DNA of 64,000 bases from Branchiostoma floridae (lineage: Eukaryota; Chordata; Leptocardii; Amphioxiformes; Branchiostomatidae). Under the pieces are notes generated by a model. The model made no database searches, was not told where the DNA came from, and worked only from the letters and a program-made list of their open reading frames with translations. Position numbers and translations under genes: made by a program. The stretch covers positions 5,530,776-5,594,775 of the forward strand of contig NC_049997.1 of NCBI RefSeq assembly GCF_000003815.2, in the 5' to 3' direction. Below, piece after piece: positions 2,653 to 63,293 of the stretch (the first letter of the stretch is position 1; the number at the start of each line of letters is the position of its first letter).

Positions 2653-3858
2653 AAAGCCTTGCTGTATTGCTGGTTCAGGATGAGTCCAATGCATCACAAG
2701 GCGAGATCTCCATAAATCCACAGCTGGGAAAAATACTCAAGGAGAATGCACAAGACATCCCTGTGTTTACTGCTGTTTTACAAGCAACTGAAGACGACAA
2801 AAAAGATGCACAGCAAGATGGAGTGGAATTGTTACTGCTTAAAATTGACCCATGTGACACAAGAACTGACCCATCACCTGGCTGGCTAACCTTTGACCAC
2901 CGGTCCAAATACCCACATCTTCCCTCAAAGATTCGGAGCATTGTTGGGCATGCTGGTGTCACAAGTAGGGCAACAGTAGTGATAAAGAAAGAACGGTACC
3001 CAGATGCCAGAGTCATTCTCTTCTCTAGTGACATACCAGAGGACACCGAGTACTACAGGGGAGACGAGAAGGCCATGGGGATTGGGAAGAAGGAAGACTC
3101 CATCCTGCAAGATGCACAAGAGGCTGATGTGGTCTTTTCTCTTGGACACAAGACATTTGACCACTTTCAGAACCAGTTCAGAGCTATTCCCACCAGCAAG
3201 AGGCCACAACATTTCAAGTTTGTTCCAAGGCCTTCCAAGATCTTTGTAGATGCAGAGGCTGAATTCCAGGACACACAGACAATGGTGGTTCTGTCCATTG
3301 GTAGGGTGAATGGCGCTGAAAAACTGAAGGGATATGACCTTGCTGTTGAATCCCTGAGCATTGTTGCAGACAAGATGAAAGTCAGGTATCGTGTCATAGG
3401 AGTTGACGAAGATGACTTTCAAACACGCAACGCAATCCTTGAGCAATGTAAGTCAGCCAACTTACAAATAACCCTCCTCTCATATGGCACACAGAAGGAC
3501 ATCTGTAAAGAGATGATGCAGGCTCACCTGGTCCTGATGCCTTCTCGTGCTGAACCGTTCGGACTGGTCGGCCTGGAGGCCATCGCAGCTGGCGTTCCTG
3601 TTCTTGTATCCAGCAAATCAGGATTGACAGACTTCATCCGTGAACATGTAGATGAACTGCATCATTCCATTGTTGACATGGATGGAAGTGACAAAGATGC
3701 CACTGTAAAATACTTGGCTCACAGCATTGAGAAAATGCTGAAACAGAACAGAACAGAGTTCAAAACAGCAGCAAGGGGCAAACAGCAGCTTCTGTCCTTA
3801 AAGTGCTGGGAAGAGTCCCATCAGCAGTTCATCAAAGCCTGTACAAGTAGAGACACAG
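2653..3858 (+). CDS. Exon 2 of paralogue A: GT4-type glycosyltransferase domain
   Basis: This exon encodes 402 codons. The N-terminal Rossmann half includes GHAGVTSRA and a predicted sugar/acceptor-side region. The C-terminal half has VVLSIGR followed by EKLKGYD, which are the Arg and Lys positions expected to contact the donor diphosphate. It then has SRAEPFGLVGLEAIAAGVPV, the EX7E signature of GT4 enzymes. The acceptor is a pyrimidine tract ending AACAG at 2652, and the donor is CAG/GTAAGT at 3858/3859. The exon starts at codon position 2, matching ATGG of the first exon and giving a protein start M-E-S-L-A-V. Catalytic activity is possible because key residues persist; donor and acceptor are unknown. 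Confidence 0.85.
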
Positions 3859-6800
3859 GTAAGTCAGTTTACATTAACTTTTTTGGCTATAGAAATCATT
3901 GACTGCCAAAACCATACAAGGTGAGGTGTAACATTTATCATCATTCTCATAACCCAAAATCTTTATTACCTTTGCCAGAATGGCTAAGGTTATATTTTCG
4001 GTCCGGTTGTGTGTTTTGCCCGTTTGTGAACAGCATAACAGCAAGAAGAGTTTGACGGATGCAGCTGATATTTGGTGGGTGGGTAGGGGTCTGGAAAATG
4101 AAGGAGTTGGATAATAGGCCCCCTATAGTGGCTTGCTAAGGTACTGCAGCGGAACCTCCATGCTTGATATCTCGGGTTCTGGACATGCTGTGGTCGTGAT
4201 TTTTGAGCGGTAGGGAGCCCTTAAAGCAGAGAGTGATTGCTGCGAGTTTGGGCATCCTAGCGGCTTTGTTGGAAGTGCAGGCGCCGGTTTACTCGCAAAC
4301 TTTTGTCCGCGGACAGCATAACTCGAGAAGACTTCGACGGACGCTGATGATATTTGGTGGGTGAGTAGGGGTCTGGAAAACGAAGGGGGTGTTCGATAAC
4401 AGGCCCCCTAGCGGCTTGCCTTGGTACTGCAGCGCAACTTCCGGGTGTGTTTCCTCATCTTCTAAACATGCTATGGTCACGAATTTTGTGTGTTAGATAG
4501 CTCTTGTGCTCAGGAGTTAGTGACATAAGTTTGGGCCCCCTTGCAGCCAGTTTACGGGTAGCCGGGGCATTTTTGTCAAAAACTTCTGAAGCATTACAAC
4601 CCCCCAGTCTGGTTTGGTTGATTCCACCCGTGGCAGCTGTGCAGCGCTGTTGACGCGTTGCTAAGGCCAATGGGTCAGGCTCCTTGACCTTTCCAGACAG
4701 GCGGACCGTACCATGTACATGTAGTTCAAAATGGGTAGGAATTTGTTGGTAAAATGGACTTTTTCATAACTCAAGAAGGGAACAATGGATTTTAATTATT
4801 TTTGGTATGTAGGTACCTTAGACAATGTTGTACAAAAAGAAATACTAGATATGCAGAATAAGAACACATTTGCATATTTAATTTAATGTGAATATTCCAT
4901 CATAGCAGGGTCTTTTTAATGTATCTCTTATCCCAGACGTGATATGGTCTTGACATTTGGGTGGTAGATAGCTTCCAGTGTCATGACAAAGTGACATGGA
5001 GGTTATATTTACCTTTGCCAGAATGGCTAAGGTTATGTTTTAGGCTTGTGAGTCTGTGTGTCTGTGTGTGTGTGTTAACAGTGTAACTCAAGAAGCCTTG
5101 GATGGATCCCAATAATATTTGGTAGGTGGGTAGGGGTCTGGAAAACAAAGGTCAAGTTCGATAATGGGCCCCCTAGCGGCTTGCTAAGGTACTGCAGCAA
5201 AACCTCAATTTTTTTTATATCTCGTGTTCTGGGCTTGCTGTGGTTATGATTTTTGAGTGGTAGATAGCTCTTGGGGCAGAGAGTAAGTGCTGCAAGTTTG
5301 GACTCCCTAGCGGCTTGTTTGGAACTGCAGTCGCCAATTTCCTTTCAAACTTTGGACGAGAATAACTCGAGAACGTGTTGATGGATCGTCATGGTTTTGG
5401 TATGTAGATAACCCAAGTAACAATGAATGTACACAATGGAATACTAATTATGCAAATCAGCAACTAATTTGCATAATTAATGAGGAAAGTTCATAAATCC
5501 ACTGCATTTCATGATAGGACTTTCAAACTTATATAGATGACGAAGAGAGAAATATGAACGCATATCAATTATATGACTGGTTTATTTTGAAATTCAACAA
5601 ATTGACAATGACATTGCAGCCACACGACTGAATTGCGACTTGTCATTACAAACCGTTAACATCAAAGTGGTTAAAATCGAGGCAATAACATAGTTCTTAA
5701 AAGGCATTTCAGACCGACAAATTAAAAAAGTATTGGGATAAAATGAAGTGTCATTACCAAAACATTTAAGATAGAATTTACTTAACACAGTAATATCAGT
5801 ATATAGCTATTCAAAATACATAATGCTATTTGGTACAAAAACACTGAGGTGACAATTACTCGTTCAAAAGGCGGACCATGAAGGGTACAGCGCTGTTGCG
5901 ATAGCGTTCAGTTCTACAGCGAGTAGTGTTCAGTTTGTGGGATGATCTTGTCAGTCTGCCACTGATCTCACCTCTGGCTGGTGGCAGTAAGTGCAAGAAA
6001 TGTTCAGACTGTCTGAGAGAGTTAGCAAAGTTTTTTATCAGGTCAAGACGTCGTGCTTGTAGAGAAGGTAGTCCCAAGTCAGAACAGGCATCGGTGTAAG
6101 ACGTGTAGTTGTGCCCCAGTATAATACGCACAGCTCTCCGTTGGACCTTCTCTATCCTGTCACTAAGTGCAGTGGTGAGCCCGGAATGCCAGACAGGGGC
6201 ACAATACTCCAGGACTGGTCGGATGTAAGACACATACACTGTGACAAGGTCGTCGATGGATACGTGAAAGTGTTTCAGTTTGCGGAGGAGGCACAGACGT
6301 CGACTTGATTTGCTACAAATGGAGTCGACATGGGAGTTCCATCGTAAATCAGACTGAAGCAGCACACCCAGGATTTTCATAACTACAACCTGTTGGAGCT
6401 CTGTGTTGTCGATCGTGAGAGGAGGTGTTGGGTACGGGGTCTTCCTGAATTGAATATGCATGACTTGACACTTCTTGGGATGCAGTTTCATATGGCTGGT
6501 TCGAGACCAGTTGTCCAAGTCGTTCAAGTCCTGCTGCATACTTGAAGGATTTAAGTTGGGGGTTCTTATTTCCAACAAATTCAGGTCATCAACGAATTTC
6601 CAGCGTTTGGAGGCAGCCTGATGTGCGGCGCTGTTGATATACGCAAGGAAAATCAAAGGCCCGAGTAGAGTCCCCTGGGGTAACCCACAGGTCACCTTCA
6701 AGCTGTCGGAAAGTGTTCCGTGGTAACGTACAGCCTGGCTCCTGTTAGAGAGGAAGTCTACAATCCATCTTGTCACGGAGGGGCGCAGGCCGAGATCAAG

Positions 6801-9800
6801 CAGACGTTGGATAGCAAGGTTATGACACACACGATCGAAGGCCTTGCTATAATCGGTTGAAACAAGAGAACACAGGACGCCGGGTTTATCGGTGGCTTTG
6901 AAAACCTCGTTGGTCAAATCTAGAAGGCAGTGTGTTGTCGATTTGCCCTTGAGGCAGCCGTACTGTTGAACATCGATTTGAGGAACGATGTCGGTCAACA
7001 CCCACCGCGAGACAAAACGTTCGGCAACTTTCGCTAGCAGGGATGTCAAGGAGATCGGACGAAGTTCGGTTATCGAAGGAGGTTTTGTCTTAGGTATTGG
7101 AACAATGACCGCACATTTCCATTCGTCCGGCACTAAGCCTTGTTGGAGGGAGCTATTGAGAATGTCGGTGAAGGGTTCGCTCAGTTCACACGCAAATTCT
7201 TTGATTATTTTACCAGGTATGCCATCTGGTCCAGCTGCTTTGCGTGTTTTGACCCTTTGTAGTTCTTTGTAGACATCCCAGGGTTGAACACATGGTGCCG
7301 GAAACGAAGGTAAGTACGCGGGCAGTGCTGTTGTGTCGATGGCAGGTAGAGACTGTATCACTGATCCGAGTGTTTTGTTAATCTCCATGGCAATACCGGG
7401 TTTGTCATCGGGGGCGAACCCATTGATGTGAATGACCGGTTCGGAACAGGATGAGTTCATCATGGTTTTTATCTCCTTGTACCACTGTGTGATATTGTCC
7501 TTCTTCATAGACTTTACTTTGGAGTTGTAGTAGGTCCCTTTTAAGTCCCCGATTTTCCTTTGGACTTTGTTCCTAAGGTGTTTCCAGGTGGAATCATCAT
7601 TCCTGGCAAAGGCTTGTTGTCTGCGATGTATGAGGGATTTGACCTCAGCTGACAGCCAAGGCTTGTCTTGGTGGTGAGAACGGGAAACCTTTAATGGGAA
7701 GAAGTGATCGATTTGACCTTGGAGCGTCGTGTACATAGCTCGGGATTTGTCACAAACGGAGGTAGCGGTGTAGACTTCAGACCAGCGATGAGATGTAATC
7801 CATTGCCCGAATAGTCGCAATGCTGAGTCTTTGATAGGTCTGTACACACGTCTCACTGTCCTGTTGATCACGGTTCTAGTTTTAGGTTGAAAGTCCACCG
7901 TGTTGTGATCACTAGTTCCTAAGGGAGGTGAGATGGTCGGAGGTAAGTAGTGCGATGCCAGGTTGGTGATCAGGAGATCCAAAGTGACTTGGCCTCTCGT
8001 GGGTTGCTTCACCACCTGGCACAGGTTGTGGCTTGCACACACTCTTGTTACGTCGACCCGATTAAAGTCACCAGCAACGGCTATCCCTATGTCAGGATAC
8101 TTCACACGGAGAGAGTCAATCGTATCCACTAAGTGATCGACAAGTAGCTCGTCGTGACCGGAGTTAGGTGGAGAGTACACGGCACAAACGGCTAGGCTGG
8201 AAACGTTCCGTGGAAGACGGTACGGCCGGATCTTAACCCACAAACACTCGAGTTCGTCAGGAACGAAGGTGTCGAGAAGACTTGACGGGAGGCTGTCTTT
8301 CACATAAACGGCGACGCCGCCTCCTCGACGATCGGGACGACATTTGGAGAACACCGAAAAACCGTCGACTGACATAAGCTGGTCGGGTGTTGCAGGGGTA
8401 AACCACGTCTCGGAGACTACGGCTATGTCAGTGTTGTTAATCGAAAGTACGGACTGGAACTCGTCCAGTTTGTTTAACAGCGATCTTGGGTTAAAGATCT
8501 GGAATGTTGGTAGCTGATAACCACACCTGGGTCTGTTGTTGTTTACATTCCGCCGGGGCGCCTTGGTACGATCACAGGTGATAGGACGCAGGTAACGCTT
8601 GTTGAATGGATCAGGGCCACATAGAAAGTCCGACGCTGATTTACATATCAAAGGGTGATCACTTTGCAGAGATGGGGAGGGTCGATTTCCAACAATTGTA
8701 GAGATATTACGAGCAAAGTTTGTACCTGCTTTCCTTCCTCTCGGTCTACCTCTTTTGAATAGTCCGTAGGTTTTCAGCTTTTCCTTGGCTTGTACGTCGA
8801 TGAAACCCTGTGTACATCGCCGCAGGCCTCTCAGGAATCCAGCGGAGTAACGTAGAACTCCAATGGACGCCATTTCAGAAGACAGAGATCGGCCACACAG
8901 CACGAACAGACGTCGGATACTCCTCCAAAAGTCCGCACAGCACGAAACAAACAGACACCAAACGGTTTACAGGACGGTTAGACATACACTACGTAAATAT
9001 TGCACTTCAAAGTGTTCAGAAATAAGGATGCAGACACCTTAGACGCTAGAGTAGGGGAGAGCTCAAAAGCTTGCGGCTGCCCTACACGAGCGCCACCTAT
9101 CGAAATTATGCAAATGACGGCCTCATTTTCGGATCGTCATGATTTTTGGCATGTAGTGAGCTGAAGTAAAAACTTATATAATGAGATACTAGTTATGCAA
9201 ATTAACAGCTTATTTGCATAATCAATGAGGAAATTTGATAAATCCACTGCATTCTGGGACTTTCAAACTTCTCACATATGTAACTGAGAAAGATGGCAGA
9301 GAGACATGTTTGGGTCCACTAAACGTCTTTTCTTGAACTGCAGGAGCCGGTTTTGTTTCCTACTTTGAAAGAGAATAAGTAAAAAAGGGATGAAAGGATC
9401 ATCGTGATTTTTGGTATGCTGATAGCTTAAATGATGCTTGATACAATTTAATATCATTATGTAAATAGGGATCTAATTTGTACAATAAGCAATGGCGAAA
9501 TGTTATGAACCAACTCCAGGCATATAAAATAAAATGTAATGAGTAACACATTTAATAATATGTCTACAGACATCATTCTACATAACAAACCTGGTTTATT
9601 TGGCAAAGGTATGTGTTCGTGGAACTCTAGTTGAAGCTAAAATCATATTATACAATTTTAAGAACCATTACACCTTTTATGTATAGTATATGCCTTTAAT
9701 TTGGTTCAAATTGTTTCATGGATGTAACATCTATTACCATAACTTTTCAAGTTTATTGCAATTTCTCAAGCGATATTAATTTAACAAATGATCAACGCAT

Positions 9801-12800
9801 AATTTTTCCCAGTTACGATCAATAAGTTCTCAGCCTCACACATAAATAATAAGCACAACAGAGCAATATCCACCGAATTTCAAATCATTGCAGCCATTAC
9901 TCTCCAGGCAACGCCTCTTTTAAAACTAGTAGGCAAGTGGTTAGAAAAACAAGGGTGTAATATTGTGCTTAGTAAAAGTGTTATTTAAGCAGAAGTGTTC
10001 CCTTTTCACACATGGATGATTTTGGAACTGTCTATTGTTGCATGGGGGGGGGAATGGCTGAAATATGCTGTATTTGCTCTCAAGCAAATGTCTGCCTTTC
10101 TAGTTGTTTATGAATGCATCGATATCAAAACCATTCAAAGTGTGTTGAACATGTGGATGTCTGAAGTGTGCATACCTCAGAAATTACTGTTGCTGCACAG
10201 TCAAGTAGATTTCCTTAAATTCATCGCTTATTTATTTCATGGTATTATGATTAGTGTCGGTATTATGGTAATGAATGTTACATGCATCTAACAACTTGAA
10301 ATGTGCCCACAGATACTGGTGCAAAACAGCCTGCTACAGGCCAGGAGCAGAGTGCAGTACATGGTGAGGAGATAGAGGAAGGTACGAAAAGCTTCTGAAT
10401 CAGTATCTGTCACCAACAGTTGTCAACTTGAAGGTACATGTACCTGCATTATGAAGGTCACAAAATCATCTTCAGTTGATAATGATTGAATTTTTGAGCA
10501 AAATATAACAGCAATGATTGGCACTTAACAGACCCCTTTTGTTACTTTCATTATTAAGATTGCAGGGCTGCATTGTATATTGCTTTATGTCATACCTGTG
10601 ACGCGAAAACATTCGATACGGGTGTTCCGGACCGGATGATAACTTTCCGTACGGCCCGGCCTTATCACACGCGCTCCATTCGAATAAATCGAACTGTTTC
10701 GAGTGGGCCGATTACGGCGCCATCGAAAGTTCGAATACCTGATTCGGACGTCTGAACATTACTGTTGCAACGGTTTTTTTTCGAGGGCAACAAATTTGTT
10801 CAACTTCTGGCGCATTTCACATCAAAAACAGTAGTTTTCTCAGGTGGGTATGACATAAATAAAATACAACACGGTGTATTCCGCATCACCCTCGGTCTCA
10901 GCCCTCCCACGGGTCGGACCACCCTCCGGCCTTCGGGCGATCCGACCCGCGGTCGGGCTGATACCTTGAGCGATACGGAATACACCGTGTTGTATTCTAT
11001 ATGTATTTCCATTGTTGAAAAATGTAACGTTTTTGACGGTGCAAACCAAAAATTGAAGGCTTTTAAGTTGCACCAAACAGATGAAGTAGTGAATTGCTGA
11101 CTTTTTTCACGTCTTAAATGTTGATAGAACAAAGTACTTATAATAGAACCAGTATAAGAAGTTACTGTACACTAGTAAAAGCTAGCCTGGGTACCATCCG
11201 GATAGTAGTTCGCTCCTATGTTCGCTTCTGCTATCCGTCTGGAGACGTGCGCATTCAAACCTTTTGGTGGTAAAATCAGTTAATGAGCGAATCAAGGAAT
11301 GGGTTCTAGAGCACTCGTTCGATGGCAACAGGACAGAGGGCTTGTCCGGTGTTGGAACACCGGTTCGAACGAGCGCTTGAACCCATTCCGTAATTCGGTC
11401 ATGTGTAGGGACCAATCAGCGCCTGCTTCCACTTTTTGTACGATTCCAGATGCTAAGATGGTCCGCGTTCCCAGACGGAAACACAGAGAAGCGACTGTAT
11501 ATAGTGTATAATGAATGTCAGAGCTAGAAGCGACTGTATATAGTATATAAGGAACGCCGGAGCGAACTGCTTTCCGGATGGTACCCAGGCTAAGAAAAAG
11601 CTATTATACAACTGTATATGATAAAATTATTACAGTCAATTGCTAATAAATCATCCCTGAAATGTTGATGTTGTACCAAATTTAGAATTACATACACTGC
11701 CAAAATGATTTTCGCTTATTTTGCTTACCCCATGGACAGTTCTTATATGAAGAAAAATATTCTTGCAAGAAGAAAATGTAAAAGAAAATTCAACATTTAT
11801 GCTCTTAAGAGAGGCGGTAAGGTTTGCATATTAGATTGTGCTGAGTAAGAAATTCTACGTTTTCTTTTCTGGACCAAAGATTTGCAAAATAAGATTTTTC
11901 CTGTCAGTGTGTACCTGTGACATTTGTATTCCCCCGTTGAATTTTGAGCCTTGCATAAAGATCTTAAACTTCTCCCTGCTATCTAATTGACTACCACAGT
12001 AGGCTGAAGGTGAGGATGCCTGCAATTTCTTAAATCTATGTTTTTCACATTCTCCTATTTCATCTAAAATGTTGTGAGGTGGCCATACACAATGCCTTCA
12101 AACTCTTTAATTTATAACTGGAGTCACTGTGTGATCTATTTGGAGTAAAAGTATAAATGCATGAAGATGCAACCTTATATTGTCAGACTTCAACCCGAAT
12201 TTCCAAACCTTGTTTAACAAAATGTTTTTGATTGTTTTTTTTTAATAAAAGAATGACAAATTAGCAACAACAGTAAATCTTGTGCCGGATACATTGTACA
12301 TTCTGCAATTGCTTTTCCTGGTACAGTAGCTTTACTAATCATTTGAACTTTATCCACAGGTAACAACACACAACATCCTGGAAAACTCCCAAACAGAAAG
12401 AGAGACATGGATCCTACTGGTGAGACTGGGGAAAGTAGGAAGGCCTTCAAAGGTAACTTGTAGGCAATACCTGTCAGCAGTAGAATAATGTCAGGTGCTT
12501 TATTACACTTGCCAAGAAGGTTATGTTTTTGGTGTGTTTGTCCGTCTGCATGTCTGTCTGTGAACAGCATGATTCAAGAAGCCTTGAAAGATTCAGTCTG
12601 ATGATATTTACATGTAGTAGGTAGGTAATGAAAGGGGTTGGAAATAAAGGTCATTCAAGTTCAATAATAGGCACCCTAGCAACTTTGTAAGGTACTGCAG
12701 TGGAACATCCTTTTTTTTACATCTCGTGGTAGACATGCTGTTTTCATGATTTTTGGGTGTGGTAGATAGCTCTTGGAGCAGAAAGTGCTATATCATAGTA

Positions 12801-15800
12801 TATGTTGTAAGTTGGGCTTTTTTCAGAACTATCGGGCCAATTTTGTTTCAAACTTTGGAAGAGAATAACTCGAGAATATGTTGCTGGATGATACAAATTA
12901 TTCAAATCAATTGCTAATTTGCATGATTAATTAGAAAGTTTATAAATCCACTGCATTGCATAATACTGGACTCTCAAACTTGTCAAATTATGCAGAGAGG
13001 AATGGCAATAGATATCAATTATGCTAATAAAGACCTCATTTGCATGATTAATGAGAAAATACTACAATTCCTTAGTGGTAAGTGATGGGAATTTACAGTA
13101 TTACAAAGCTAAGTAAAGATGAACATTATTGGACATAAATCATGTAGTAATTTATGAGCAAATGCTACAAAAGCCTTCTTTGCAATTTGAATACATACAT
13201 ATGGAACAATTTGTGCTATTGGGTAGAAAGATGATCACCTGAGATATGTTATGCAAATGAGGAATTTATTTGCATAATCAATAGGAAATGATATTTCTCA
13301 TATTGCTTCGACCTCCAACCTCTCCTGCCTTAATTTTTAGTAAATGCTATCAAGTTTTTTGTTTATTCCAATTGATATTTGTTGACAATAAATTGGAGCA
13401 TGATTGATTTATTTTATAGCTTGAGTTATGACTATCACTCTGATTTTGAGTTCAACCTACATTTGTTTTCTGTCATTTCAAAGTAATGATTTATAGTATA
13501 TTTCTGTTGTTATATTCAGTCTGTATTATTTCAATCTGGACTCCAGGAAGACTATGTTGAATCCCTAGTGGAGATCTCAATAAACCAAACCAAACTCGAA
13601 AAGGTTAATACAATCTGGTGAAGGTATGAGATCATGGAGAGTCTTCTTTGCATTTGCATTGTCTTCTGGTTTGGAAAGACATTGTTACTCATGATCACAG
13701 TACAAAATGCAATGAATGCTTAATTCTTTTCCAGGAGCTCCCCCTCCACTGCCCATTGTGGTGGAAATACTTGCACAAGTCAGGCCCAGTGTTAAATACC
13801 CAAAGCAAATGAAAAGCTATGCTTCAGCAAGAGAAAAACTAGTCACTTTGGATCTCACCACAGTAACAGACGAGATACTTGAATTGCTGGAACAGGTGAA
13901 GCCTGAAATAAAGACCATGGAAGACTTGCTTGACACTGCAGAGGCAATAGAACAGATAGAGAAATTCAAAGGTGTTAATGTCACTGGCATAAGGATAGGC
14001 AGTCTGGTCTTCTACCTGCAATGTACAGATTTGGGTGGCCTGGGTGAACTGTGGTTCATGTACAAAAATGGGAAACTGAATGACCTTCTGGTCAGTAGTT
14101 TGGTAAGTGAGGAAACCGTACAGCAGCTCTGTGCTGAGAGCATCTCTGTGAAGACAACCATCAACATACAGGACTTCAGGAAGGCTCTGGTCTACCTACT
14201 CACTACATCTACTGCTAACGGTAACTATATTGATATTAATTAAAAACCTTCAATTTTCTTACTTAGTCATCAGTACATCATTAAATATACCAAGGAGGTT
14301 AACCTCCTTGAATATCCTTAGAATTTTCTAAGATTGTCTCTTTCTGAAAGTCTATTGCATGCCAAATCTGTCACCAAAATCATTAATATGATAAATCAGT
14401 TTAAAGTGAGTTGTCTACATATAAATATATAATATTTACACACAATGGAAGACAAACTGAAAAGGATGCAATTCGAAATCAATTTTCATGTTGTATTGTG
14501 ATAACAAATATAATTCAATCATAAAATGTATAAAATACTAATCACCTTCAGTCTGTACCTTATATTTAAAGGACAACACACACCAAGACTACCTCAGGAG
14601 TACCCCCTCTACCATCCACACATCCACAACAGGAGCAATGTGCTGGACGTACTTCATCTTGATGACACAAAACTGACCAGGTCTACAGTGGACCTGACAG
14701 AGAACAGACAACATCATCTCAGGACCAAACTTAGCCAGCTAAAAATAGCAGGTACAAAATAAGTCATTGATTATATAGCAGAGTGAAATGTAATATGAAT
14801 GCCACAATCATGGACAATGTGATATGGGTATACATGCTCTCTTCTGCATAACAGTAGCAATATTCCCAAAATTCAGAAAAAGATCATCATAACTGGCAAG
14901 CATTGATTATTGCAAAATGTTGAAATTGCAGAAAGCCTGTGAAAATGTGATCTTGCAACACCTAAAGGAAAGTAACTTAATTTACATGTGGCCATGGTAA
15001 AAAATGGCATATTCTAACTATAGGGCAATGTACTTAACTTAGGCAATATTGAAAGCTATATTTTATGGTTTTATATGTCTGTGCTACATTATGAAATGAC
15101 CATTGCTGTATGAATTAAAAGATGACCAACATAGCTTACAAGTTAACATGATTATAAAAAAGGTCTAAATTTTTGCTATAGGTTCATGTACTTGTAATGA
15201 GTAAAATTGAAAAGCTATATTATTCAATTGTTTCATATTTCTGAGTTAAATTTTAAAATTGTTATTTGAATTCAAAGGTGACCAACAGACTACATACACA
15301 CCAGATGACACAGATGTCCCACCTGATGACACAGATGTCCCACCTGATGACACAGATGTCCCACCTGATGACACAGATGTCCCACCAGAGATGTCAGAAC
15401 TGACCTCACTGGACATCAGGGAACTGGAACAGCTGATGAAACAGCCCAGAAAGAGAACGTTTTCTGTAGGTTCTGAGTCATCAGGGTACCATACAGGCAC
15501 TCCTGGATCAGGACTCAGCAGACCTGACTCGCCTACAGGTATGGTAATGATACTTTCAAATTGGCAGTCAACCGATATGTTCTAATTTCCTAAGATGACA
15601 TGGTGGTAGCAAACAGTGAACTGCATTATCTAAAAAGCTGTCTCCCTAATACCCCTGTCACATTGTCGACAGTCTTTGGGCGTACTTTGCGATCGAGGAA
15701 GGTTTTTCAAATTTAAGATCAACAAAAGGTCGCACATATTTTTTGGCTGAAAACCGTTCCAGATTGTCACATTGAGCGTGGCATGGATGACTGCTCAAGA

Positions 15801-17476
15801 ATACATTTATGATAATCTTAGCCTCCCATGACATGCCAATGATGTACATGTACATGTAAATGTTCCTGACAAAAAGGCAAAGGGGACATAAAAAATAACA
15901 GCGACTAGTTGCTGATGTTAAGAACAAGCTTTGGTGCATAGTGAGCATCGGGCAACTCCTAAAAATTGCCAATGATCACTAAAAATAGATGTTTGCACAA
16001 TGTGACATGGGTAAACATATAACAAACTTTTGCGTGCACAAAAATACTTGAGCTCTGTGCACAGGAGATCAGGGGAAATGAACAATATGATGTGATCAGT
16101 CATAAACAAAATGTATTATTAAATACAAAATATAATAATAGAATTCTTTAACTGTGAACTTAATTAGTCAAATGCATTCACAAAAACTTGTGTTTAAAAG
16201 GCTTAAACAAGCATTACCAGGTTAAAATAATACTTAAGACCTTAATTTCTATTTGCCTTTCCTAGAAGATGAGCTTGAAACAAAGAACATGCTGAGGACC
16301 CTCCTTGCTAAACTGAACACACCTGCAGTGAGGAAAGACAAGGCACGACAGCTTGATCTGTACTGTCAGATAGGAGATCTCTACAGGACTAAACTACACA
16401 ACTTACAGTCAGCTCTGCAGTATTACCAGAACATGTTAGAGTGTTCTCAAGAACTGTCAGAAAACACAAAACAAGCGAAGGCCTACAGCAGACTGGGTCT
16501 GACATGTGACATGTTAGGTCTGCAACAGGAAGCATACGCGAACCATGAGAGAGCTCTGGCTATCTATAGAGTAGAAACCAGTAATGAAATTGACATTTGT
16601 ATAGCTTACAAGAACCTGGCCTCATCATTAGCACTGTCAGATCAAGTTTCAGATGCAAAAACTAACTATGAAACAGCCTTAGCTGTTGCCATGGAGACAG
16701 GAAACAAGACTGAACAGATGGACATTTACTGTAAGCTGGGTGATTTACACAGGGAACAGCTACATGAACCACAGGTCTCACACAAGTACTACACAGAGAT
16801 GTTGGCACTAGCCAGGGACTTGGGGAGGAAGGACAGGGAGGGGCTGGCTTACAACAGACTGGGACTGGCTTGTGATGACATGCAGGATTATGAGGCAGCT
16901 CTAGGGCAGTTTCAGAAGTACTTAAAGATGAGTGAAGAAAGTGGAAACAAGACTGCACAGATAACAGCACATCAAAACATAGTTGGTTCCTACAAGGCAC
17001 TGGGTAAACTGGACCTGGCCAGATATCACTATCAATCAGCATTGACTCTTGCCATGGAGATAGGAAACAAGACTAAACAGATGGACATTTACTGTATGCT
17101 GGGTGATCTACACAGGGAACAGCTACATGAACCACAGGTCTCACACAAGTACTACACAGAGATGTTGGCACTAGCCAGGGACTTGGGGAGGAAGGATAGG
17201 GAGAGGATAGCTTACAACAGACTGGGACTGGCTTGTAAGGACATGCAGGATTATGAGGCAGCTCTGGAGTGGCATCAGAAGCACCTGAAGATGAGCCAAG
17301 AAAGTGGAGACAAGACTGAACAGATAGCAGCACATCAAAACATAGCTGTTTCCTACAAGGCACTGGGTAAACTGGACCTGGCCAGATCTCACTATCAATC
17401 AGCAATGGACATTGCCATGGCGACTGGTAACAAACATCAACAGGAAAACATTGCTGAAAACCTGGCTAAATTGTAG
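2653..17476 (+). CDS. GT4-TRADD-N-TPR protein, paralogue A (exons 2-8, spliced)
   Basis: Seven exons are visible: 2653-3858, 10313-10381, 12360-12452, 13735-14220, 14572-14751, 15278-15538 and 16266-17476. Each is bounded by AG and GT, and each intron is phase 1. With a first exon ATGG like those of B and C, the total is 3510 nt, or 1169 residues and a TAG stop. Order: GT4-type glycosyltransferase domain, two short linkers, TRADD-N-like adaptor, Ser/Thr/Pro-rich linkers, about nine TPRs. No signal peptide or membrane segment is evident, so a cytosolic protein is likely. TRADD-N domains bridge sensing and effector modules; TPRs bind partners. The role as an intracellular immune sensor/adaptor is inferred. 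Exon 1 would lie left of the window. Two LINEs and foldback elements sit in its introns and 3' region. The open frames beginning upstream of each acceptor are intronic artefacts. Confidence 0.85.
3969..5572 (+). repeat. Dispersed hairpin-ended repeat, intron 2 (left part)
   Basis: Two consecutive units (starting near 3969 and 5011) open with the imperfect hairpin CCTTTGCCA-GAA-TGGCTAAGG. They contain repeated blocks such as GATAACTCAAGAA, GGGCCCCCTAGCGGC and TTATGCAAAT/ATTTGCATAATTAATGA. The second unit is interrupted by the LINE at 5573 and resumes at 9110. The same sequence is present in paralogue B at about 41070-43135. No coding capacity was seen. It is probably a non-autonomous transposon; class uncertain. 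Confidence 0.6.
5573..9103 (-). mobile_element. CR1-group non-LTR retrotransposon inserted in intron 2 of paralogue A
   Basis: The element interrupts a repeat that is continuous in paralogue B (42600-42625), which marks both ends. The six bases AATTAT flank it at 5567-5572 and 9104-9109 as a short target duplication. It carries a single long ORF, a 3' untranslated tail of about 280 nt with an AATAAA-like signal, and about 200 nt 5' of the ORF. It lies antisense to the host gene. Confidence 0.85.
5856..8903 (-). CDS. LINE polyprotein: AP endonuclease plus reverse transcriptase (CR1 group)
   Basis: One uninterrupted 1015-residue frame. Residues ~130-350 form an APE-type endonuclease: FNPRSLLNK (Asn), VSETWF (catalytic Glu), AGDFNR and GTSDHNTV. 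Residues ~500-800 form the reverse transcriptase: LRPISLTSLLAK, VSTDYSKAFDRV (motif A Asp), GLPQGTLLGP and KFVDDLNLLE (FVDD catalytic box). The C-terminal region has the CLLRKLKHF and YVSYIRPVLEYCAPVW motifs common in CR1/Jockey-group LINEs. The N-terminus is basic (KRGRPRGRKAG). No separate ORF1 is seen, so the element is either single-ORF or 5' truncated. The lack of internal stops suggests recent insertion. Confidence 0.9.
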   Translation of the reverse strand: MLCGRSLSSEMASIGVLRYSAGFLRGLRRCTQGFIDVQAKEKLKTYGLFKRGRPRGRKAGTNFARNISTIVGNRPSPSLQSDHPLICKSASDFLCGPDPFNKRYLRPITCDRTKAPRRNVNNNRPRCGYQLPTFQIFNPRSLLNKLDEFQSVLSINNTDIAVVSETWFTPATPDQLMSVDGFSVFSKCRPDRRGGGVAVYVKDSLPSSLLDTFVPDELECLWVKIRPYRLPRNVSSLAVCAVYSPPNSGHDELLVDHLVDTIDSLRVKYPDIGIAVAGDFNRVDVTRVCASHNLCQVVKQPTRGQVTLDLLITNLASHYLPPTISPPLGTSDHNTVDFQPKTRTVINRTVRRVYRPIKDSALRLFGQWITSHRWSEVYTATSVCDKSRAMYTTLQGQIDHFFPLKVSRSHHQDKPWLSAEVKSLIHRRQQAFARNDDSTWKHLRNKVQRKIGDLKGTYYNSKVKSMKKDNITQWYKEIKTMMNSSCSEPVIHINGFAPDDKPGIAMEINKTLGSVIQSLPAIDTTALPAYLPSFPAPCVQPWDVYKELQRVKTRKAAGPDGIPGKIIKEFACELSEPFTDILNSSLQQGLVPDEWKCAVIVPIPKTKPPSITELRPISLTSLLAKVAERFVSRWVLTDIVPQIDVQQYGCLKGKSTTHCLLDLTNEVFKATDKPGVLCSLVSTDYSKAFDRVCHNLAIQRLLDLGLRPSVTRWIVDFLSNRSQAVRYHGTLSDSLKVTCGLPQGTLLGPLIFLAYINSAAHQAASKRWKFVDDLNLLEIRTPNLNPSSMQQDLNDLDNWSRTSHMKLHPKKCQVMHIQFRKTPYPTPPLTIDNTELQQVVVMKILGVLLQSDLRWNSHVDSICSKSSRRLCLLRKLKHFHVSIDDLVTVYVSYIRPVLEYCAPVWHSGLTTALSDRIEKVQRRAVRIILGHNYTSYTDACSDLGLPSLQARRLDLIKNFANSLRQSEHFLHLLPPARGEISGRLTRSSHKLNTTRCRTERYRNSAVPFMVRLLNE
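9110..9640 (+). repeat. Dispersed hairpin-ended repeat, intron 2 (right part)
   Basis: This continues the repeat unit interrupted by the LINE and ends at TTTGGCAAAGGTATG...GAACTCTAGTT. The half-palindrome TTTGGCAAAGG pairs with CCTTTGCCA at the unit's start. From 9641 to 10312 the intron holds nothing recognisable. A 98-residue open frame at 9995-10291 is discounted because its poly-G run differs in length in paralogue B. Confidence 0.55.
10313..10381 (+). CDS. Exon 3 of paralogue A: short linker
   Basis: This is a 69-nt, phase 1-1 exon of 23 codons, acidic and Gln-rich (from DTGAKQPATGQEQ to EEIEEG). The acceptor is TGCCCACAG. The donor GTACGA is weak, so skipping is conceivable and would keep the frame. 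It is almost identical to 43816-43884. Confidence 0.65.
10862..10996. mobile_element. Small foldback MITE, family 1
   Basis: Inverted ends AATACAACACGGTGTATTCCG and CGGAATACACCGTGTTGTATT enclose a GC-rich core with a second dyad (GGGTCGGACC...GGTCGG-type). Copies lie at 44364-44499 and, in inverted orientation, at 63831-63956. Confidence 0.75.
11184..11592. mobile_element. 409-bp foldback element with ~33-bp inverted ends
   Basis: The ends are AGCCTGGGTACCATCCGG and CCGGATGGTACCCAGGCT. An internal dyad pairs AATGGGTTC...ACTCGTTCGA with TCGAACGAGCG...GAACCCATT. Paralogue B has an uninterrupted AAAAGCTATTATA at the equivalent site near 44681; in A, AAAAGCT flanks the insert on both sides. The rest of 11593-12359 shows nothing recognisable. 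Confidence 0.75.
12360..12452 (+). CDS. Exon 4 of paralogue A: short linker
   Basis: This is a 93-nt, phase 1-1 exon of 31 codons, polar and basic (NNTQHPGKLPNRKRD, then ETGESRKAFKG). The acceptor is TTTATCCACAG and the donor is AAAG/GTAACT. The identical counterpart is 45433-45525. Confidence 0.7.
12505..13310 (+). repeat. Dispersed repeat in intron 4
   Basis: Member of the family seen in intron 2, recognised by CTTGCCAAGAAGGTTATG at the left, GGTACTGCAG, GAATAACTCGAGAA, and ATTTGCATGATTAAT blocks on the right. Paralogue B carries the same copy at about 45580-46370, so it predates the duplication or was copied with it. Confidence 0.5.
13735..14220 (+). CDS. Exon 5 of paralogue A: TRADD-N-like adaptor domain
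   Basis: This 486-nt, phase 1-1 exon encodes 162 residues. The core RIGSLVFYLQCTDLGGLGEL is followed by WFMYKNGKLNDLLVSSLVSE and a terminal beta/alpha pair (SVKTTINIQDFRKALVYLL). The pattern of two hydrophobic strands around helices with a Y-x-x-G-x-L core followed by a long helix is what I recognise from TRADD N-terminal domains and their bacterial and invertebrate relatives. An N-terminal helical segment (TDEILELLEQVKPEIKTMED) precedes it. TRADD-N mediates homotypic or heterotypic assembly in death/immune signalling. The family call is by eye and needs a profile search. Confidence 0.65.
14291..14310. other. Perfect 20-bp palindrome in intron 5
   Basis: CAAGGAGGTTAACCTCCTTG is self-complementary. 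A related half-site (CCAAGGAGGTTAT) borders the minisatellite in paralogues A and C. Possibly a remnant of a hairpin-ended element. The rest of intron 5 (14221-14571) shows nothing else. Confidence 0.45.
14572..14751 (+). CDS. Exon 6 of paralogue A: linker
   Basis: This 180-nt, phase 1-1 exon encodes 60 residues. It begins with the conserved block PRLPQEYPLYHPHIHNRSNV and LDVLHLD, which paralogue B shares, and then diverges into a polar tail (ENRQHHLRTKLSQLK). The acceptor is TATATTTAAAG and the donor GCAG/GTACAA. The following intron (14752-15277) holds no recognisable element. Confidence 0.65.
15278..15538 (+). CDS. Exon 7 of paralogue A: linker with PDDTDVP repeats
   Basis: This 261-nt, phase 1-1 exon encodes 87 residues. 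Four perfect or near-perfect 21-bp repeats (15301-15385) encode PDDTDVP, followed by SELTSLDIRELEQLMKQPRK and a Ser/Gly/Pro-rich tail (SESSGYHTGTPGSGL). It has no clear sequence match in paralogue B, which has two different Ser-rich exons here. Likely disordered. The intron that follows (15539-16265) shows nothing recognisable. Confidence 0.65.
16266..17476 (+). CDS. Exon 8 of paralogue A: TPR array
   Basis: This terminal coding exon of about 403 residues ends at TAG 17474-17476. It has about nine tetratricopeptide repeats with the usual A-x-x-x-x-G/Y-A-x-x-x-F pattern, for example AYNRLGLACDDMQDYEAAL and AAHQNIAVSYKALGKLDLA. Positions ~150-400 are built from a 363-bp (121-residue, three-TPR) unit present twice (repeat register 16715 and 17078), with a partial third that caps the array. 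The units are nearly identical at DNA level. The array is expected to form a binding superhelix for a partner or ligand. Confidence 0.9.
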
Positions 17477-17518
17477 CAAGGCCTACAGGAATCTGATTAA
17501 AACAGTACAATACTGCAT

Positions 17519-21070: not shown

Positions 21071-21082
21071 ACAATACTGCAT

Positions 21083-39566: not shown

Positions 39567-39753
39567 AACCGAAAATCCTAAATAATCTGGACATTCACAA
39601 TACAGGTGTATTGTATAGATTGCAATTCAATGTACATCCACAGGTACATACAAAATGTGCACTTGTTCCCATTATGATTGATTAAATACATGTCACTTGA
39701 CTGTTAAATGCATACATGTATGTTCAAGTAACAATTACGTCTCCTTGTAACAG

Positions 39754-40959
39754 AAAACCTTGCTGTATTGCTGGTTCATGATGAGCACAATACATCACAA
39801 GGCGAGATCTCCATAAATCCACAGCTGGGAAAATTACTCAAGGAGAATGCACAAGACATCCCTGTGTTTACTGCTGTTTTACAAGCAACTGAAGAGGACA
39901 AAAAAGATGCACAGCAAGATGGAGTGGTATTGTTACTGCCTCAAGTTGACCCAGGTGACACAAGAACTGACCCATCACCTGGCTGGCTAACCTTTGACCA
40001 TCAGTCCAAATACCCACATCTTCCCTCAAAGATTCGGAGCATTGTGGGACATGCTGGTGTCACAAGTAGGGCAACAGTAGTGATAAAGAAAGAACGGTAC
40101 CCAGATGCAAGAGTTATTCTCTTCTCTAGTGACATACCAGAGGACACCGAGTACTACAAGGGAGACGAGAAGGCCATGGGGATTGGGAAGAAGGAAGACT
40201 CCATCCTTCAAGATGCACAAGAGGCTGATGTGGTCTTTTCTCTTGGACACAAGACATTTGACCACTTTCAGAACCAGTTCAGAGCTATTCCCACCAGCAA
40301 GAGGCCACAGCATTTCAAATTTGTTCCAAGGCCTTCAAAGATCTTTGTAGATGCAGAGGCTGAATTCCAGGACACAGAGACAATGGTGGTTCTGTCCATT
40401 GGTAGGGTGAAGGGCGCTGAAAAACTGAAGGGGTATGACCTTGCTGTTGAATCCCTGAGCATTGTTGCAGACAAGATGAAAGTCAGGTATCGTGTCATAG
40501 GAGTTGACGAAGATGACTTTCAAACACGCAACGCAATCCTTGAGCAATGTAAGTCAGCCAACTTACAAATAACCCTCCTCTCATATGGCACACAGAAGGA
40601 CATCTGTAAAGAGATGATGCAGGCCCACCTGGTCCTGATGCCTTCTCGTGCTGAACCGTTTGGACTGGTCGGCCTGGAGGCCATTGCGGCAGGTGTTCCT
40701 GTTCTTGTATCCAGCAAATCAGGATTGGCAGACTTCATCCGTGAACATGTAGATGAACTGCATCATTCCATTGTTGACATGGATGGAAGTGACAAAGATG
40801 CCACTGTAAAATACTTGGCTCACAGCATTGAGAAAATGCTGAAACAGAACAGAACAGAGTTCAAAACAGCAGCAAGGGGCAAACAGCAGCTTCTATCCTC
40901 AAAGTGCTGGGAAGAGTCCCATCAGCAGTTCATCCAAGCCTGTACAAGAAGAGATACAG
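39754..40959 (+). CDS. Exon 2 of paralogue B: GT4-type glycosyltransferase domain
   Basis: This 1206-nt exon keeps the VVLSIGR, EKLKGYD and SRAEPFGLVGLEAIAAGVPV motifs of exon 2 in A. Differences from A cluster near the 5' end (LVHDEHNTSQG, LPQVDPGD) and are otherwise few (for example SGLADF for SGLTDF). The donor is CAG/GTAAGTCAG. Confidence 0.85.
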
Positions 40960-49900: not shown

Positions 49901-51712
49901 AATACTTATTAGGGCAGTTTGACAAAATAAGCACCTTTTGCGGTAATTAAATAACGGCACATGCTGGCCTTTCGCAGCAATATGAATCGGCAATTTCAGA
50001 CTTGCATGCATATGGAGTCTCGTTGGAGGTGCCTTTTTTTAGAACAGTCAAAAAGTAATGCACACATCGATGTCATCAATAAAATCAAGTCAGTGTGGCC
50101 TAATACAGCAGCTTTGAGGTAATAATGCTCAATATTTTCAGGTAACAAGGATCCCAAAGACATCTTGAAATCCCTCCATGAACAACTGAACACACCAGCA
50201 GTGAAGAAAGACAAGGCACTACAACTCGACCTGTACTGTCAGATAGGAGATCTCTACAGAACTAGACTACATGACTTACAGTCAGCTCTGACGTATTACC
50301 AGAACATGTTAAAGTGTGCTCAGGCATTGTCAAAAGATACCCAACAAGCCATGGCTTATTGTAGACTTGGTATGACATATGACATACTAGGTAAACAAAA
50401 ACAAGCTTTTAAAAATCATGAGAGAGCATTGCATATTTACAAGGTTACATTAGAAAGAGGTGCTGACATTTGTATAGCTTACAAGAACCTGGCCTCATCA
50501 TTAACACTGTCAAATCAAGTGTCAGATGCAAAAAGTAACTATGAAACAGCATTAGCTGTTGCCATGGAGACAGAAAACAAGACTGAACAGATGGAAATTT
50601 ACTGGAAGCTGGGTGATTTACACAGGAAACAGCTACATGAACCACAGGTCTCACACAAGTACTACACAGAGATGTTGGCACTAGCCAGGGACTTGGGGAG
50701 GAAGGACAGGGAGAGGCTGGCTTACAACAGACTGGGAGTGGCTTGTTGGGACATGCAGGATTATGAGGCAGCTTTGGAGTGGATTCAGATGGACTTGAAG
50801 ATGTGCCAAGAAAGTGGAGACAAGACTGAACAGATAACAGCATATCAAAACATAGCTGATTCCTACAAGGCACTGGGTAAACTGGACCTGGCCAGATCTC
50901 ACAATCAATCAGCAATAGACATTGCCATGGAGACAGGAAACAAGACTGAACAGATGAACATTTACTGGAAGCTGGGTGATTTACACAGGAAACAGCTACA
51001 TGAACCACAGGTCTCACACAAGTACTACACAGAGATGTTGGCACTAGCCAGGGACTTGGGGAGGAAGGACAAGGAGAGGCAGGCTTACAACAGACTGGGA
51101 CTGGCTTGTGAGGACATGCAGGATTATGAGGCAGCTCTGCAGTGGCATCAGATGGACCTGAAAAATAGACAAGAAAGTGAAGACAAGACTAACCAGACAA
51201 CAGCACATGAAAACATAGCTGCTTCCTACAAGGCACTGGGTAAACTGGACCTGGCCAGATCTCACTATCAATCAGCAATGGACATTGCCGTGGAGACAGG
51301 AAACAAGACTGAACAGATGGACATTTACTGGAAGCTGGGTGATTTGCACAGGAAACAGCTACATGAACCACAGGTCTCACACAAGTACTACACAGAGATG
51401 TTGGCACTAGTCAGGGACTTGGGGAGGAAGGACAGGGAGAGGCAGGCTTACAACAGACTGGGTCTGGCTTGTGGGGACATGCAGGATTATGAGACAGCTC
51501 TAAAGTGGCATCAGATGAATCTGAAGATGACACAAGAAAGTGGAGACAAGACTGAACAGATAACAGCACATAAAAACATAGCTGCTTCCTACAAGGAACT
51601 GGGTAAACTGGACCTGGCCAGATCTCACTATCAATCTGCAATGACCATCGCCATGGAAACAGGAGACAAACATCAACAAAATAACATTGCTATAAAGCTG
51701 GCTAATCTGTAG
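39754..51712 (+). CDS. GT4-TRADD-N-TPR protein, paralogue B (exons 2-9, spliced)
   Basis: Exons: 39754-40959, 43816-43884, 45433-45525, 46808-47293, 48024-48209, 48696-48890, 49207-49476 and 50142-51712, plus ATGG at 34441-34444. All introns are phase 1, and the sum of 4080 nt is exactly 1360 codons with TAG, giving 1359 residues. Architecture as in paralogue A, with two Ser-rich linker exons in place of the PDDTDVP exon and a longer TPR array. From exon 2 to the end of the TRADD-N exon it is almost identical to A, introns included; beyond that it is clearly diverged. An AATAAA lies at 52329-52334. No premature stop or frameshift was seen, so this is the best intact member in the window. Confidence 0.87.
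41070..43135 (+). repeat. Dispersed hairpin-ended repeat pair, intron 2 of paralogue B
   Basis: Counterpart of 3969-9640 without the LINE. Start hairpin CCTTTGCCAGAATGGCTAAGG at 41071 and 42068; end TTTGGCAAAGGTATGTG...GAACTCTAGTT near 43100-43135. The continuous sequence at 42600-42625 is the empty site for the LINE in A. The remaining intron (43136-43815) holds nothing recognised. Confidence 0.6.
43816..43884 (+). CDS. Exon 3 of paralogue B: short linker
   Basis: 69 nt, phase 1-1; one residue differs from the A copy (GLEQ for GQEQ). Weak donor GTACGA shared with A. Confidence 0.65.
44364..44499. mobile_element. Small foldback MITE, family 1 (paralogue B copy)
   Basis: Same inverted ends and core as 10862-10996; it predates or was copied with the duplicated intron. 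The rest of the intron (44500-45432) shows no element. Confidence 0.75.
45433..45525 (+). CDS. Exon 4 of paralogue B: short linker
   Basis: 93 nt, phase 1-1, same protein as the A exon 4. Acceptor TTTATCCACAG, donor AAAG/GTAACT. The following intron carries the dispersed repeat (about 45580-46370) shared with A. Confidence 0.7.
46808..47293 (+). CDS. Exon 5 of paralogue B: TRADD-N-like adaptor domain
   Basis: 486 nt, phase 1-1, 162 residues, with the same core (RIGSLVFYLQCTDLGGLGEL, then WFMYKNGKLNDLLVSSL). Substitutions from A concentrate in the last ~50 codons (ISEETLQQL, TTINIEDF, YLFTTPTAEG), just before the point where the two genes stop aligning. Confidence 0.65.
47780..47880. repeat. 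Imperfect hairpin in intron 5 of paralogue B
   Basis: TGTGTATCGCTCCTTCTGGTT (47780) pairs with the reverse complement near 47844-47880 (CGATTCATTCTGACCAATC...GAGCAATACACA). Each arm carries a CCAAT/ATTGG motif. Probably a foldback remnant; absent from paralogue A. Confidence 0.55.
48024..48209 (+). CDS. Exon 6 of paralogue B: linker
   Basis: 186 nt, phase 1-1, 62 residues. PRLPQEYPLYQPHIHNRSNV and LDVLHLD match exon 6 of A; the tail (LQIPSSTQTEDSQDGLEIN) does not. Acceptor GACTTTTAAAG, donor GCAG/GTAATA. The intron 48210-48695 has nothing recognisable. Confidence 0.65.
48696..48890 (+). CDS. Exon 7 of paralogue B: acidic/Ser-rich linker
   Basis: 195 nt, phase 1-1, 65 residues: an acidic start (DHHDANSEDVQVEQVTSQL) then SGSIRSTSSIGSATSLLSTR. 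Acceptor CTGTTTCAG, donor AAAG/GTACAT. Likely disordered and phosphorylatable; no domain recognised. No counterpart in A. Confidence 0.65.
49207..49476 (+). CDS. Exon 8 of paralogue B: Ser/Thr-rich linker
   Basis: 270 nt, phase 1-1, 90 residues. It begins DEQVREVTSKRRSVLDIIKW, then a long Ser/Thr/Gln tract (SGSITSTASIRSAATVQSKT). The motif RSGSIxSTxSIxSAxx repeats that of exon 7, so the two exons probably arose by duplication. The following intron (49477-50141) shows no element. Confidence 0.65.
50142..51712 (+). CDS. Exon 9 of paralogue B: TPR array
   Basis: About 523 residues, about twelve TPRs. After three opening repeats (LDLYCQIGDLYRTRLHDLQS onward) come three copies of the 363-bp, three-TPR unit (register 50588, 50951, 51314) and a capping partial unit with the TAG at 51710-51712. 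Paralogue A has only two such units. Unit-to-unit differences sit mainly around ACWDMQDYEAAL / ACEDMQDYEAAL and the following EWIQMDLKM / QWHQMDLKN segment. Confidence 0.9.
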
Positions 51713-62015: not shown

Positions 62016-62102
62016 TAACGTACCCATTACTCACTGATTAAATACACTTGTTAAATGCATACATGTATGTTCAAGTAACAATAATACTTCTCCTTGTAAC
62101 AG

Positions 62103-63293
62103 AAAGCCTTGCTGTATTGATGGTTCAGGATGAGTACAATACATCACAAGGAGAGATCTCCATAAATCCACAGCTGGGAGAAATACTCAAGGAAAAGTCA
62201 CAAGACACCCCTGTGTTTACTGCTGTTTTACAAGCAACTGAAGAGGACAAAAAAGATGCACAGCGAGATGGAGTGGAACTGTTACTGCCTAAACTTGACC
62301 CAAGTGACCCCAGGACTGATCCATCGCCTGACTGGTTGACATATGACCACCGTGTCAAATACCCACATCTTCCGGCAAAGACAGTTAGCATTGTGGGACA
62401 TGCTGGTGTAACAAGCAGAGCAGCAGTAAGGATCAAACAAGAACGGTATCCAGATACGAGGGTAATACTCTTTACCAGTGACATACCAGAGGATACCGAG
62501 TACTACAAAGGGGATGAGGAGGCCATGGCCATCGGGAAGAAGGAAGACTCCATCCTTCAAGATGCACAAGAGGCTGATGTGGTCTTTTCTCTTGGGAACA
62601 CAATTTTTGATCATTTTGAGACCCAGTTCAAAGCAATTCCTGCCAGCAAAAGGCCTCAGCATTTCAAGTTTGTGCAGAGGCCTTCCAAGGTTTTTGAAAA
62701 GGCACAGGCAGAATACAAGAAGGCAGAGACAATGGTGGTCCTGTCCATTGGTAGGGTGAAGGGTTTTGAGAAACTGAAGGGATATGACCTTGCTGTTGAA
62801 TCCCTGAGCATTGTTGCAGACAAGATGAAAGTAAGGTACCGTGTCATAGGAGTTGACAAAGATGACTTCAAAACAAGCAAGGCAATCCTTGAACACTGTA
62901 AGTCATCAAACCTACAAATAACCCTCCTACCCTATGGCACACAGAAGGACATCTGTAAAGAGATGATGCAGGCCCACCTGGTCCTGATGCCTTCTCGTGC
63001 TGAACCCTTTGGACTGGTCGGTCTGGAGGCCATCGCAGCTGGAGTTCCTGTTCTTGTATCCAGCAAATCAGGATTGGCAGACTTCATTCATGAGCATGTA
63101 GATGAACTTCATCATTCCATTGTTGACATGGATGAAGGTACCTCTGCAAGACATTGGGCCCACTGCATCGAGAGGGTGTTGAAACACAATGAGACAGAGT
63201 TTGAAACGGCAGCGAGATGTCGGCAGAAACTACTATCATCAGAATACTGGGAAGAATCTCATCAACAGTTCATTCAAGCCTGCACAGACACAG
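62103..63293 (+). CDS. Paralogue C, exon 2: GT4-type glycosyltransferase domain (gene runs off window)
   Basis: A 1191-nt exon of 397 codons, from acceptor TTGTAACAG to donor CACAG/GTAAAT, phase 1-1. It keeps SIGR, EKLKGYD and EPFGLVGLEAIAAGVPV, but differs from A and B throughout (KLDPSDPRTDPSPDWLTYD, FVQRPSKVFEKAQAEYKKAE) and is five codons shorter in the stretch after VDMD. No stop or frameshift. Later exons are to the right of the window, so whether C has TRADD-N and TPR modules cannot be seen. Confidence 0.85.

Follow-up and report, generated by a model that had tools for sequence, protein, structure and literature searches.

A tandem cluster of predicted GT4–TRADD-N–TPR genes in the lancelet Branchiostoma floridae and the different histories of its modules

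Organization of the gene cluster

A 64,000-nucleotide stretch of the Branchiostoma floridae genome (assembly GCF_000003815.2, contig NC_049997.1, positions 5,530,776 to 5,594,775 of the forward strand; here called the window, whose numbering is used throughout) carries on its plus strand two genes, 1 and 2, that combine a GT4 glycosyltransferase module, a TRADD-N-like module, linkers and tetratricopeptide repeats (TPRs), together with the GT4 exon of gene 3. When 100 kb is added on each flank, the tandem set numbers four genes, 0 to 3: gene 0 lies upstream of the window (GT4 at -25595, TRADD-N at -20838, TPR at -12469), and gene 3 runs beyond its end (TRADD-N open reading frame at 66182-66742, TPR exons at 69642-73803). 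A preliminary description of the window had proposed three GT4–TRADD-N–TPR paralogues on one strand; the plus strand and the modules are borne out, and only two of the three have all their modules inside the window. What is new here is that the GT4 module and the remaining modules have different histories, and comparison of the copies suggests that paralogous genes recombine as the family evolves.

The spliced models, starting with the GT4 exon and ending at the stop codon, comprise 1113 codons for gene 1 and 1303 for gene 2 without internal stop, and all exon joins in both are GT-AG and in phase 1 (Table 1). The reading of the GT4, TRADD-N, linker and TPR exons as one predicted gene is supported because the exon phases fit and the module order recurs.

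Table 1. Coordinates in the window of the exons of genes 1 to 3, the tract shared by genes 1 and 2, and an intronic insertion
Feature	Position	Strand	Remarks
Gene 1 GT4-conflict exon	2653..3858	+	phase 1-1
Gene 1 TRADD-N-like exon	13735..14220	+	486 bases, phase 1-1
Gene 1 linker exon A (LPQEYPLYxPH...NVLDVLHLD)	14572..14751	+	phase 1-1
Gene 1 linker exon B	15278..15538	+	four 21-bp repeats (PPDDTDV), Ser-rich tail; phase 1-1
Gene 1 TPR exon	16266..17476	+	ends at stop
Gene 2 GT4-conflict exon	39754..40959	+	phase 1-1
Gene 2 TRADD-N-like exon	46808..47293	+	486 bases, phase 1-1
Gene 2 linker exon A	48024..48209	+	phase 1-1
Gene 2 Ser-rich linker exon	48696..48890	+	phase 1-1
Gene 2 second Ser-rich linker exon	49207..49476	+	phase 1-1
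Gene 2 TPR exon	50142..51712	+	ends at stop
Gene 3 GT4-conflict exon	62103..63293	+	phase 1-1
Near-identical tract, gene 1 copy	2607..14215	+	97-99% to 39713-47288 apart from two insertions
Near-identical tract, gene 2 copy	39713..47288	+	
Non-LTR retroelement insertion, gene 1 first intron	5573..9109	-	endonuclease and reverse transcriptase frame 5856-8966; absent from gene 2 intron

Conversion and exchange among the paralogues

The near-identical tract of genes 1 and 2 starts 46 bases before the GT4 exon and stops 5 bases short of the end of the TRADD-N exon, and directly outside it the two genes are unalike. Within the tract the copies differ at 51 of 5831 intron sites, 38 of 1206 sites of the GT4 exon and 16 of 486 sites of the TRADD-N exon, where 12 of the 16 fall in the final 170 bases. 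Positive selection was considered as the cause of the greater divergence of the GT4 exon over the aligned intron (Fisher p 1e-8) and was rejected: the synonymous divergence (dS) of the GT4 exon, 0.071, is itself above that of the intron, and patchy conversion therefore fits better. The arrangement as a whole fits recent gene conversion or unequal crossing-over with ends inside exons and with flanking introns that no longer match. The TPR exons of the same two genes are 88% identical, with a dS of 0.24 and a nonsynonymous divergence (dN) of 0.14. In genes 1 and 2 the half running from GT4 to TRADD-N thus seems to have been recently homogenised and the TPR half to have kept its divergence; the earlier likening of the cluster to a diversifying immune family copied in tandem is too simple, diversification being confined to the TPR half.

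Gene 0 bears on exchange over a longer range. Its GT4 module is 86% identical to that of a gene at 7.92 Mb and 57-58% identical to those of its neighbours, and its TRADD-N module is 91-92% identical to the neighbours and 85% to the 7.92 Mb gene. A GT4 protein tree of eight rows rejects a clade of genes 0, 1, 2 and 3 (p-AU 0.00027), as does a DNA tree of seven of the same eight rows (p 5e-56). The TRADD-N DNA tree places genes 0, 1 and 2 together (92/92) and rejects a grouping of gene 0 with the 7.92 Mb gene at p 0.034, a soft value since the pair was chosen after the identities were known. From these comparisons GT4 exons seem to have been exchanged between clusters.

Identity of the GT4 and TRADD-N-like modules

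The GT4 exons of genes 1, 2 and 3 match PF20706 with E values of 8.3e-62, 9.1e-64 and 5.5e-67 (209.8, 216.3 and 226.8 bits vs a curated cut-off of 26) over model positions 1 to 383 or 384 of 385, and the TPR exons of genes 1 and 2 match TPR_12 at E 2e-37 and 1e-51. On these profile matches the identity of both modules is certain, as the preliminary description had assigned them. Among solved structures, GlgA glycogen synthases are nearest in sequence (C-terminal half, E 2.7e-8). The E-x7-E motif, which we take to be the catalytic motif of GT4 enzymes, is intact in genes 1-3 (EPFGLVGLE), and three other genes also keep its second Glu. GT4 is under purifying selection, with a dN/dS of about 0.2-0.3 (dS 0.071 and dN 0.022 for genes 1-2; dS 0.48 and dN 0.096 for genes 1-3). 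Of the 105 stretches of the genome that match the gene 2 exon, 71 cover at least 360 of 401 residues, and one among those 71 contains a stop; the Pfam GT4 profile gives at least 57 matches.

The two 162-residue TRADD-N-like exons of the window have PF20694 as their best Pfam match, with single-sequence scores (18.5 bits, E 0.0018, for gene 1; 19.9 bits, E 0.00066, for gene 2) that lie below the curated cut-off of 23.7 bits, a threshold for detection. Profile similarity to TRADD-N, the absence of which had been set beforehand as telling against the assignment, is found at the level of the family. An hhalign comparison of 12 family exons, 9 of them retained by its filter, with four exons chosen as Pfam TRADD-N matches gives a probability of 92.9% (E 3.8e-7, 61 columns), and 30.2% when the query is limited to the near-identical exons of genes 0-2. 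The four Pfam-accepted exons score 24.6-29.2 bits against the hidden Markov model (HMM) of the family, a level attained by none of 5000 shuffles, and the gene 3 exon scores 10.2 bits, attained by one of 5000. In the other direction, the HMM of the four accepted exons gives 34.6 bits for gene 3, 11.0 for gene 2, 10.9 for gene 0 and 9.8 for gene 1; among 10,000 shuffles, half made from gene 2 and half from gene 3 (5000 each), the gene 1 score was attained once and the other scores never. The exons of genes 0-2 are, on these scores, very probably TRADD-N domains.

By the same profile comparisons the TRADD-N exon of gene 3, unreported by the Pfam TRADD-N model at E up to 1, differs in type and is no copy of the gene 0-2 exon. 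The uS motif is described in the text of PMC8195603 as a tiny residue and a Ser, sometimes a Cys, between strands 2 and 3 of TRADD-N; the residues at the presumed place of this motif are GS in genes 0-2, GC in the four Pfam-accepted exons and AC in gene 3. With the TRADD-N exon as query, a phmmer search of PDB chains gave nothing meaningful (best E 0.76), and comparison with plasmid records gave no match. Genome-wide there are 69 Pfam TRADD-like_N matches, 50 of them within 0.6 Mb at C17:18.30-18.90 Mb (48 of the 50 on the plus strand), a group that is probably the DED-TRADD-N-WD40 expansion of PMC8195603.

Linkers and TPR arrays

Linker exon A is common to genes 0, 1 and 2 and a second linker exon to genes 0, 1 and 3, in place of which gene 2 has two serine-rich exons; the linker turnover noted earlier is thereby upheld. 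So is the variation in array length: the unit of the array is 363 bp, encoding 121 residues and three TPRs, and is present in two copies in gene 1 and three each in genes 2 and 0 (2.1 and 3.1 in a tandem-repeat scan of the window). The TPR array of gene 3 is longer than the others and contains a run of N; its last ~100 residues occur twice, and the duplicated end together with the run of N suggests an assembly fault.

Variation among the arrays is highest at the predicted binding-groove positions of the TPRs. As the presumed ligand-contacting positions we take residues 2, 5, 9, 12 and 13 of each repeat, 15 per unit. Among the 9 of 13 units that are at least 100/121 identical to the yardstick unit, the 4 of lower identity having been dropped, mean entropy is 0.912 at these positions vs 0.321 elsewhere (permutation p 0.0004), and the excess persists within helix A alone (p 4e-5). 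Codon changes in the groove comprise 4 silent and 39 replacing of 43, as against 28 and 82 of 110 elsewhere (Fisher p 0.028). These p values overstate independence because the nine units are related.

Paralogous loci and alternative N-termini

Search of the genome with the TRADD-N exon gives 14 paralogous matches, 10 of them strong (E below 1e-20). Within the stretches read, the same-strand upstream partner of the ten is GT4 in seven cases, DED in two (PF01335, E 6.9e-9 and 1.3e-11) and Death in one (PF00531, E 4.8e-13), with a putative join. At the two DED loci and the Death locus, about 4, 9 and 6 kb of upstream sequence were covered and no GT4 was found. The phase-1 donors of the DED exons fit, by eye, the TRADD-N acceptor. 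An additional Death exon lies further upstream at one locus and a SEFIR exon at another, each a candidate member of its gene. The SEFIR exon (PF08357, E 1e-12), upstream of the gene at 8.18 Mb, may or may not belong to that gene, its apparent donor being of phase 2 vs a DED acceptor of phase 1, again by eye.

Seven genes, distributed over four places, have GT4 followed by TRADD-N, and the shortest distances between the two are 0.6-1.2 kb. At C19:13.73 Mb a GT4 exon is followed 1.2 kb on by TRADD-N and then by TPR, on one strand and within ~6 kb in total; at C4:5.39 Mb the distance from GT4 to TRADD-N is ~0.6 kb; and at C13:7.29-7.34 Mb each of three GT4 exons has a Pfam-accepted TRADD-N exon next downstream on its own strand. 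Much of the stretch behind one C13 GT4–TRADD-N pair, where leucine-rich repeats (LRRs) might follow, reads N. TPRs stand behind six of the ten strong TRADD-N exons (genes 0-2 and the loci at 13.73, 8.18 and 7.92 Mb).

Other features of the window

An 18-bp minisatellite with the unit TACTGGGGGTACAGACAC precedes the GT4 exon of gene 1 at 1-2404 (133 copies) and that of gene 3 at 59778-60971 (67 copies). Directly behind the stop of gene 1, at 17346-20638 on the plus strand, is a non-LTR retroelement coding region (reverse transcriptase), and an open reading frame at 21713-22570, with no Pfam match, resembles by eye the terminal part of a Penelope-like element that carries a GIY-YIG nuclease. At 30238-31863 a Ras-family exon (PF00071, E 1.2e-10) overlaps the terminal part of an array of 6.3 tandem 204-bp copies, and the array seems to copy part of that exon.

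Relation to known systems

The articles cited here are drawn on in part, PMC8195603 by its abstract and passages of its text. These describe GT4–TRADD-N–LRR proteins, with TRADD-N of the DEDD2 clade, in cephalochordates, hemichordates and cnidarians, propose GT4 as effector and place this GT4 family in a conflict-system context; the suspicion that some module links were already catalogued was thus well founded. The lancelet genes resemble those proteins in having GT4 before TRADD-N and then repeats, in the same kind of animal, and differ in carrying TPRs for LRRs and a TRADD-N below the Pfam cut-off; no LRR family is among the Pfam matches listed for the window, and it is TPRs that follow TRADD-N. 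DEDD2-clade TRADD-N is also described there as fused to TTC28-like TPRs, a likeness in the pairing of TRADD-N with TPRs, GT4 being unnamed in those proteins. Bacterial TRADD-N systems, in which the N-terminal domain varies and repeats such as TPRs make up the C-terminus (PMC8195603), are similar in layout, i.e. effector, TRADD-N, repeats and an exchangeable N-terminus, a likeness taken from descriptions. Corals of the genus Acropora have expanded glycos_transf_1 domain-containing proteins with TPR, LRR or ankyrin repeats (PMC12314368), which share with the lancelet genes a GT4-type domain, TPRs and expansion in one lineage; unlike the lancelet genes they are described in a main text where TRADD does not occur.

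Death domains are reported as enriched among lancelet dispensable genes (PMC12373286), and a 2008 article reported the shuffling of domains among immune genes of amphioxus (PMC2575513). In the literature searched no title concerns this lancelet cluster, and a full-text search for TRADD-N, GT4 and TPR led to one paper, PMC8195603, in the covered passages of which the tandem cluster, its exon structure and the exchange of modules do not appear, nor, in its main text, does SEFIR. GT4 before TRADD-N is accordingly already published; the GT4–TRADD-N–TPR variant and the recombination pattern are new as judged by the covered passages of that article.

Proposed function and alternatives

On balance we favour the reading that each gene encodes one cytoplasmic protein, with a GT4 effector, a TRADD-N adaptor, a Ser-rich linker and a TPR sensor, in a family evolving by recombination between paralogues. 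In such a protein the N-terminal glycosyltransferase would act as the effector, the TRADD-N-like domain as the adaptor, the serine-rich linker would be flexible and the C-terminal TPR array would be the sensor. Binding of an invader-derived or stress ligand in the TPR groove might release the TRADD-N domains or cluster them by way of their exposed sheet, and the clustered GT4 domains would then add sugar to a target, of the invader or the host, which would be disabled or marked. One joint transcript, ligand binding, activation and enzymatic activity are predicted features, and an immune role is suggested by the domain content, the exchange with Death-family exons, the expansion and the way the TPRs vary.

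If instead the GT4, TRADD-N and TPR exons were spread over at least two distinct neighbouring genes that had been duplicated together, the ~10 kb first intron of gene 1 and the failure of two scans to find a shared 5' coding exon (they returned minisatellite or low-complexity pairs and two short gene 1–gene 3 pairs) would be readily understood. The phase-1 joins, with no stop before the GT4, TRADD-N and linker donors of genes 1 and 2, the recurrence of GT4 then TRADD-N at short distances elsewhere in the genome, and the GT4–TRADD-N fusion published in cephalochordates (PMC8195603) make this very improbable. A protein serving metabolism or internal cell-death signalling, without sensing of invaders and expanded by neutral tandem duplication, is a stronger competitor and still an unlikely one: purifying selection on GT4 would suit it, TRADD-N and DED or Death exons indicate cell death as much as immunity, and broken copies fit birth and death without selection, whereas the concentration of variation at predicted TPR groove positions, the presence in one genome of at least 71 long GT4 exons and the published conflict-system context of the GT4 family (PMC8195603) speak against it. 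Sensing and action might also be reversed, with the TPR half an effector scaffold and GT4 a catalytically dead sugar sensor. Some family members may be inactive because in gene 0 and the 7.92 Mb gene D replaces the second E of the motif (EPFELVGLD); the retention of that Glu in genes 1-3 and three other genes, and a GT4 that is conserved with a TPR that varies, leave little probability for such a reversal.

Besides the 5' exon that was not found, the lost Glu, the sub-threshold TRADD-N scores and the limits given with the TPR and tree statistics, several observations count against the GT4 effector–TRADD-N adaptor–TPR sensor reading. In the TRADD-N protein tree gene 0 pairs weakly with the 7.92 Mb gene (48/75), contrary to the DNA tree. 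Some copies look broken, namely a GT4 with a stop at C19:13.69 Mb, the TPR part at C19:13.73 Mb with a frame change and the 7.92 Mb TPR with stops. No TPR was found in the 7 kb read behind the 13.72 Mb TRADD-N exon, and none is listed for two C4 loci and C13:20.6 Mb in a genome-wide search in which 83 of 437 candidates were scored. AlphaFold2 models of the GT4 (3 alignment rows, pLDDT 42.1) and the TRADD-N-like exon (2 alignment rows, pLDDT 38.9) are useless, the latter also as regards the RRM-like fold of TRADD-N.

A wider proposal, which we put forward tentatively and think somewhat less likely to be right than wrong, is that of a germline receptor family in which a constant TRADD-N–linker–TPR chassis has its N-terminal effector swapped by phase-1 exon shuffling (GT4, DED, Death and perhaps SEFIR), the effector-adaptor half is kept uniform by conversion between neighbours and selection diversifies the grooves of the TPRs. 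Such a family would be a chordate, intracellular counterpart of the bacterial systems with interchangeable effectors. If true, the lancelet genes would offer a concrete case, in a chordate, of recombination that treats enzyme effector, adaptor and variable sensor as separate units. The two near-identical effector halves on different sensors would constitute a natural experiment on the targets of animal GT4-conflict enzymes and the ligands of the TPR arrays, and the recombination pattern makes the division of the protein into effector and sensor testable.

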